Shown: piece by piece, positions 26,202 to 29,836 of the stretch | Layout of the letters: the number at the start of each line of letters is the position of its first letter | Position numbering within the stretch: position 1 is the first letter of the stretch | DNA from: Acidobacteria bacterium Mor1 | Lineage (GTDB): Bacteria; Acidobacteriota; Polarisedimenticolia; Polarisedimenticolales; Polarisedimenticolaceae | Direction: 5' to 3' | DNA length: 64,000 nt | Assembly (NCBI GenBank): GCA_001664505.1 | Contig: CP011806.1 | Coordinates: 5,263,672-5,327,671 of the forward strand | Translations under genes and position numbers: made by a program | Notes under the pieces: model-generated | Told to the model about the DNA's origin: nothing | The model's database searches: none | What the model saw: the letters and a program-made list of their open reading frames with translations, nothing else

Positions 26202-27026
26202 ATGGCGCGACGGGAGAAACCGCAGGGGAAGGCGACCCGGGGTAAGACGGCGAACAACCGTCTGCGCCGGGTCGACCGCTTTCTGCACGGTTACGATCCG
26301 GCGCTGATCAAGCGGGTCGACGATGCCTACGCCCAGGCGCTGTTCGTCGATCTCGGCTACGGCCGCACCCCGGTCACCACCCTCGAGAGCGCCCGCTGGT
26401 TGCGGCGGCTCCATCCGGGGCTCGGAGTCCTCGGCGTCGAGATCGATGCCGAACGGGTCGCCGCGGCCGAGTCGGCCCGGGGCCCGGGTACCGACTTCCG
26501 TCTCGGTGGGTTCAACCTGCCGCTCAGACCCGGCGAGACCGTGCGGCTGGTGCGCGCCTTCAACGTGCTGCGCCAGTACGACGAGGCCGAGGTCGCCGGG
26601 GCGCTCGAGCTGCTGGCCGGGCAGATGCTCCCGGGGAGCCTGCTGCTCGAGGGCACCTCGGACCCCTACGGGCGCTACTGGTCGGCCAACGTCTACCGCC
26701 GGGGCCAGAAGGCCGGGTTCATCACCGAGGCGCTGGTCTTCGGCACCAGCTTCCGCGCCGGCTTCGATCCGGTTGCCTTCCAGGCGATCCTGCCCAAGAA
26801 CCTGATCCACCGGGTCGTGCCCGGCGAACCGATCCACGCCTTCTTCGAAGCCTGGAAGCGTTCGGTGGCCCACACCGCGGCCCATTCGACCTGGGGCCAG
26901 CGCCAGCACTTCACGGCAGCGGGGGAGGCGCTGGCCCGGGAAGGCTACCGGCTCAACACCCGGCGCCGCTGGCTCGGCCGCGGCTACCTGATCTGGCAGG
27001 ATCCGTGGGGGGAGGCAGGGTCCTGA
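26202..27026 (+). CDS. Class I SAM-dependent methyltransferase-like protein
   Basis: 274-aa cytoplasmic protein with a Rossmann methyltransferase core. Motif I is FVDLGYGRTPVTT (residues ~48-60), the acidic motif II is VLGVEIDAERVA, and motif IV-like is VRAFNVLRQYDE. A basic N-terminus (RREKPQGKATRGK) precedes it. The family is usually annotated as class I methyltransferase of unknown substrate. No neighbour hints at the target. The start matches the first ATG and is preceded only by a -10-like TACAAT, with no ribosome binding site. Confidence 0.8.
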   Translation: MARREKPQGKATRGKTANNRLRRVDRFLHGYDPALIKRVDDAYAQALFVDLGYGRTPVTTLESARWLRRLHPGLGVLGVEIDAERVAAAESARGPGTDFRLGGFNLPLRPGETVRLVRAFNVLRQYDEAEVAGALELLAGQMLPGSLLLEGTSDPYGRYWSANVYRRGQKAGFITEALVFGTSFRAGFDPVAFQAILPKNLIHRVVPGEPIHAFFEAWKRSVAHTAAHSTWGQRQHFTAAGEALAREGYRLNTRRRWLGRGYLIWQDPWGEAGS

Positions 27027-29416: not shown

Positions 29417-29448
29417 CGGGGCCTGGACGGCCTGAGGAGGGCAGTGAA

Positions 29449-29474
29449 CTCCCGCGCCGTCGCCGGCGCGGGAG
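29449..29474 (-). terminator. GC-rich hairpin after the histone gene
   Basis: Perfect 10-bp stem CTCCCGCGCC (29449-29458) / GGCGCGGGAG (29465-29474) with a 6-nt loop, between two converging genes. No strong T-run on either side, so terminator function is tentative. Confidence 0.45.
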
Positions 29475-29488
29475 CGCACGTAGCGGGA

Positions 29489-29740
29489 TTAGCCGACCAT
29501 GAAGTCGTGAGCGCGAACGGTCTTGCGGCCGTTGGCTTCGGCGCGCTTGGCGGCCTGCTCGATGTACCAGTACACCACGAAGTTGAGGTTCTCGAGGGCA
29601 TCACCGGCGACGTTGACGCCGTGGGCCTTGAGAGCGGCCTTGGCCTTGCTGCCGACCAGCAGCATTTCCATCGCCGGCTTCTTCTTGGCCGAGGCCTTAC
29701 GTTTCGAGGCCTTCTTCTTGGTCGCTTTCTTCTTCGCCAT
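29489..29740 (-). CDS. Bacterial histone-fold protein with lysine-rich N-terminal tail
   Basis: 83-aa DNA-binding protein. Residues 1-21 are a Lys/Ala/Ser tail (MAKKKATKKKASKRK...) like histone H1 or lysine-rich tails. Residues ~28-83 form one histone fold: helix 1 GSKAKAALKAHG, loop VNVAGDA, long helix 2 LENLNFVVYWYIEQAAKRA, then the histone-type NGRKTVRAHDF, which parallels the archaeal histone 'RKTVKAEDI' motif. The fold is a singlet, as in Bdellovibrio histones, not the DUF1931 doublet. It probably dimerises and coats or bends DNA. A strong AAGGAGAT ribosome site lies 6 nt before the ATG. Monocistronic: it converges with the copper-monooxygenase gene and is followed upstream by the convergent-facing end of the proline dehydrogenase gene. 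Confidence 0.85.
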   Translation of the reverse strand: MAKKKATKKKASKRKASAKKKPAMEMLLVGSKAKAALKAHGVNVAGDALENLNFVVYWYIEQAAKRAEANGRKTVRAHDFMVG

Positions 29741-29836
29741 CCCACCATCTCCTTATTGGAAAGGAACGACTCCGAGGACCGGAGCCGCAATGTCGTTGCC
29801 CACATCGCGCACCGATGCGGCACGCTGAGGACGAGG

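Follow-up and report, generated by a model that had tools for sequence, protein, structure and literature searches.

The solved structure closest to the protein examined here is HLp of Leptospira perolatii (PDB accession nos. 9QT0, 9QT1 and 9QT2). HLp is a tetramer that wraps approximately 60 bp of DNA, compacts DNA and gives protection against MNase; R49, N53, R55, D62 and F63 have been named as its tetramer and clamp residues, and HU is missing in Leptospira (PMC12701072). It represents the face-to-face (FtF) alpha3 histones, a third class of bacterial histone whose existence was overlooked in the preliminary description of the DNA studied here, where only Bdellovibrio singlets and DUF1931 doublets were counted as characterised. 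Positively charged N-terminal tails of no conserved sequence are common in bacterial FtF histones, archaeal FtF histones are generally tailless, and bacterial-dimer histones lack the R and N residues of the FtF class (PMC11390915). The main text of that survey names Spirochaetota, Planctomycetota, Bdellovibrionota and Myxococcota as the main holders of FtF histones, Acidobacteriota being unnamed in that text. It had earlier been stated, on the basis of 180 bacterial singlets, that most of these proteins are without long tails (PMC10627809). That a bacterial singlet histone can bear a basic tail is already published; what is added here is the occurrence of an FtF histone in Acidobacteriota, its class-wide basic tail and its coexistence with HU/IHF.

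The histone gene and its surroundings

The window is a 64,000-nt stretch of the genome of Acidobacteria bacterium Mor1 (class Polarisedimenticolia). The features of the locus are as follows:

29489..29740, minus strand: gene of the FtF-type bacterial histone, as assigned by sequence and predicted fold, including the stop codon (ORF and translation; PDB match 9qt0; fold match at 0.7 Å)
29669..29740, minus strand: codons 1-24, N-terminal tail of Lys, Ala and Ser with a net charge of +12 (low model confidence, no secondary structure; basic in all 12 close class homologues)
29492..29668, minus strand: codons 25-83, predicted histone fold (helices 30-38, 48-69 and 77-80) with R66, N70, R72, D79 and F80 (AlphaFold2, HLp alignment, conservation)
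29741..29757, minus strand: ribosome-binding site TAAGGAGAT with an 8-nt spacer to the ATG (sequence)
29446..29473, minus strand: strong GC-rich hairpin of 12 pairs directly 3' of the stop codon (fold of the minus strand)

The histone ORF spans exactly 29489-29740 and is read on the minus strand from an ATG, giving a protein of 83 aa with the sequence MAKKKATKKKASKRKASAKKKPAM EMLLVGSKAKAALKAHGVNVAGDALENLNFVVYWYIEQAAKRAEANGRKTVRAHDFMVG. The plus strand translation of the same interval is unrelated. The preliminary description had located this ORF correctly without giving its strand, and two further details of it hold: the NGRKTVRAHDF motif lies at residues 70-80, and a strong ribosome site (TAAGGAGAT) is placed 8 nt ahead of the ATG. 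Judged from its sequence, the ORF is a real gene and not a chance ORF, since it has homologues in 12 further genomes of the class and its differences from the two nearest of these are mostly synonymous (pS 0.51-0.54, pN 0.17-0.20). The gene is single copy in its genome. Searches of Pfam, PHROGs and Rfam returned nothing useful for it, and a PF00808 search of the genome found no other histone, though the same model also misses the window histone, such that divergent paralogues could escape it.

The gene 218 bp upstream, on the histone's own strand, encodes proline dehydrogenase, and a gene for a TPR protein is convergent to the histone gene. The hairpin that follows the stop codon, which is without a T run, possibly marks the transcript end between the convergent genes. 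No sigma-70-like promoter for the histone reached threshold. When 19 related loci were compared, nothing was found in common with the flanks of the histone gene in the window, the sole match being the shadow frame of the histone itself, and the SMC/MAP neighbourhood of the Leptospira type was not seen at this locus. Four relatives from another family of the class (L019, L024, L030 and L050) have same-strand genes 3' of the histone in common, their products resembling by eye a molybdopterin-binding/CinA-like domain protein followed by a TPR-like protein. Elsewhere in the window (26202-27026, plus strand), a 274-aa protein with no Pfam match at 0.001 has by eye the look of a class I SAM methyltransferase.

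Codon adaptation of the histone gene to the ribosomal-protein set is 0.79, that set (which includes a few misread frames) itself ranging from 0.48 to 0.82 and eight neighbouring genes from 0.51 to 0.74. This codon usage is compatible with high expression, but is a weak indication given the GC-rich genome and the shortness of the gene. The abundance suggested in the preliminary description would fit such codon usage, although five HU/IHF genes are present as well.

Fold and family assignment

The AlphaFold2 monomer, modelled with relatives, shows helices at residues 30-38, 48-69 and 77-80 with a core pLDDT of ~96. The complete histone fold of the preliminary description can be kept as far as a single histone fold is concerned; it is, in the model, the short bacterial form, with an alpha2 of 22 residues and a very short alpha3, and not the full-length archaeal or eukaryotic one. 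HLp is the best structural match (Foldseek: 0.7 Å over 56-57 residues, 46% identity, TMt 0.96; VIA-align: Z 8.8-8.9), followed by HBb (Bd0055) of Bdellovibrio bacteriovorus (Z 8.3-8.7, 1.3-1.7 Å, 30-32% identity). HTkC of Thermococcus kodakarensis (9F2C) has the FtF fold as well (1.0-1.2 Å), but is archaeal and 35-36% identical, while archaeal nucleosomal histones and H3 are farther from the model (Z 6.2-6.6). In sequence searches, phmmer against the PDB returned HLp (9qt0) at 1.3e-9, HBb at 0.002 and HTkC at 0.025, and a profile of 54 relatives returned them at 1.2e-19, 2.9e-14 and 8.6e-11, respectively.

By its sequence and modelled fold, the window histone is a member of the FtF alpha3 histones. 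The HLp residues R49, N53, R55, D62 and F63 align to R66, N70, R72, D79 and F80, which are kept in 99, 99, 99, 99 and 92 of 100 homologous loci, a set that contains near-duplicates. The RxTxxxxD motif is present (R72, T74 and D79, each in 99/100 loci), as is the conserved alpha1 Lys by which FtF histones bind DNA (S31 in 100/100 and K32 in 98/100 loci); K34, also in alpha1, is K or R in 99/100. Against an HLp-like tetramer, A69 occupies the position of the HLp interface residue S52. The protein was grouped with the FtF histones because all five of the tetramer and clamp residues named for HLp are present and the first two of them are missing in HBb, in which S and D align to R66 and N70.

Three other memberships were considered and rejected: bacterial-dimer histones of the HBb type on account of R66 and N70; DUF1931 or pseudodimeric histones, the protein being 83 aa with one fold and no Pfam match; and archaeal or eukaryotic nucleosomal histones, alpha2 and alpha3 being short and PF00808 matching neither the protein nor the genome. 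The NCBIfam archaeal histone model scores the protein at 18.1 bits, its cut-off being 50.

The basic tail, distribution of homologues and HU/IHF

The tail, described earlier as 21 Lys/Ala/Ser residues, is indeed N-terminal and basic; its length is closer to 24 residues. It accounts for +12 of the total charge of +14, the remainder of the chain being +2 by side-chain count. With pLDDT values of 60-66 and no secondary structure in the AlphaFold2 model, it is probably disordered. A basic tail is found in all 12 clear class homologues (window histone included), at 20-33 residues and net +7 to +18. For the tail alone, pS was 0.66-0.78 and pN 0.20-0.24 between the window histone and its two nearest relatives, and 0.47 and 0.05 between L002 and L014. 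As divergence within the window's family is mostly synonymous, selection acts on the charged sequence itself and not just on an open frame. Relatives beyond the class lie between two extremes, L022 and L032 (Planctomycetota) and L004 and L010 (Acidobacteriota) having no tail and L064 (Bdellovibrionota) one of 38 residues. Around 50 of the 100 loci carry a tail of at least 15 residues and at least +5, an approximate count from a redundant set in which automatic start choice placed some starts too late (e.g. L005 and L008). Length and sequence of the tail drift freely among relatives, and close core relatives such as L022, whose core is 82% identical to that of the window histone, and L004 are without a basic tail; the tail is therefore unlikely to be needed for core function.

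Compared with HLp, the window histone is alike in core fold, in the R/N/R tetramer residues, in the RD clamp and in being a singlet; HLp differs in having a short chain ahead of the fold, its first seven residues being disordered, whereas the window protein has its tail of ~24 residues. In category, tail position and tail charge it resembles the tailed bacterial FtF histones (PMC11390915).

The preliminary description considered the protein closer to eukaryotic-style architecture, a view that is not borne out. Tailed Asgard and eukaryotic core histones and H1 are alike in having a basic, disordered, Lys-rich tail, and the core histones also share the general histone fold, so that the likeness is one of position and composition. 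The core histones differ, however, in their longer alpha2 and alpha3 (Z 6.2-6.6) and in a tail of no shown sequence relation; the closest matches to the core of the window protein are HLp and HBb (Z 8.3-8.9), and bacterial tails lack a conserved sequence. Histone H1 does not have the histone fold, and its principal tail is at the C-terminus.

The survey of HU/IHF co-occurrence proposed earlier found HU/IHF in 41/41 genomes of the class and the histone in 13/41, the window's own included. Eleven of the 12 other class homologues share 59-78% identity with the window protein across most of its length. Within the phylum, 12/297 sampled genomes hold the histone. Its distribution is patchy: near relatives such as G033, a 99% complete genome of the same family, yielded no homologue. 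L002 is the nearest relative; it and L029 (Candidatus Polarisedimenticola svalbardensis) encode identical proteins. Related loci were also identified in Planctomycetota, Myxococcota, Bdellovibrionota, Elusimicrobiota, Krumholzibacteriota and others; a tree of the core gene (60 residues, 61 usable columns) leaves 54 of 87 branches open. One class genome (G271) has two divergent histone-fold genes (L012 and L013; 35-36% identity), possibly of another subfamily. A phage origin was rejected, viral contigs holding only distant relatives of 39-46% identity. These distant histones have NGRKTVR loops (L018, 374-613; L101, 2870-3040; L099; L100), and those of L018 and L101 bear Lys-rich N-terminal extensions of >50 residues.

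Five HU/IHF-family genes are present in the histone's own genome (G000:C1 3692062, 811797, 1514799, 800625 and 1332940), three to six copies being typical of the class; the Leptospira host of HLp, in contrast, is without HU. With HU/IHF universal in the class and present here in five copies, the histone is an addition to it and most likely an accessory nucleoid protein.

Proposed mechanism and its alternatives

The window histone very probably acts as an FtF alpha3 histone whose tetramer ring wraps DNA, with the tails adding DNA affinity. Two chains would pair by the histone handshake and two dimers would close into a ring-shaped tetramer via the end of alpha2, loop L2 and the short alpha3, with contacts at the R66/N70/R72 and F80 interface and the R72-D79 clamp. 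Approximately 60 bp of DNA would follow the positive rim, whatever its sequence. The four tails, disordered and each of ~+12, may strengthen by electrostatic attraction the hold on DNA that is wrapped or lies nearby, thereby increasing occupancy and compaction. Homology to HLp makes a DNA-wrapping ring tetramer of the core most likely, and the role proposed for the tail is likewise the most likely one.

It is improbable that the protein instead remains a dimer in the manner of HBb, bending DNA or coating it as a filament and forming no tetramer ring. HBb is the second-best fold match and, like the window histone, a short singlet bacterial fold with the RKT...D loop and the S-K motif; yet it is a dimer with few residues ahead of its fold, and it lacks the FtF R and N present in the window histone and in 99/100 loci. 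HLp is also nearer by both sequence and fold (46% against 30-32% identity). Still less probable is a regulated chromatin resembling that of eukaryotes, in which acetylation or other modification of the tail lysines would switch DNA binding. The tail is similar to core-histone or H1-type tails in position, length and Lys content, and (de)acetylation of HU lysines is reported to alter DNA binding in other bacteria (as outlined in PMC11229371). Against this stand the lack of a conserved modification motif in a freely drifting tail and the lack of a recognised modifying enzyme among neighbours that are not themselves conserved with relatives. That the protein is a general polycation, condensing DNA or binding RNA or polyphosphate like Lys-rich bacterial H1-like proteins and using its fold for oligomerisation only, is hardly credible: the tail does carry most of the charge, but the DNA-contact and clamp residues of the core are strongly conserved, tailless relatives included.

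The preferred reading, a DNA-wrapping FtF tetramer, could be extended. In a speculative and rather unlikely version, the class-wide lysine tail would be a functional module by which the histone both wraps DNA and condenses or bridges neighbouring DNA amid a full HU/IHF set, possibly tuned by lysine modification. If true, this module would give bacteria an equivalent of chromatin built on tailed histones.

As the tail varies among close relatives over a near-constant core, natural pairs are available for testing the role of a basic tail with the core unchanged, the tailless Planctomycetota at 82% core identity providing one such partner. The occurrence of a tailed FtF histone in Acidobacteriota and its coexistence with HU/IHF are worth recording, as the presence of both allows histone-based and HU-based packaging to be compared within one bacterium.
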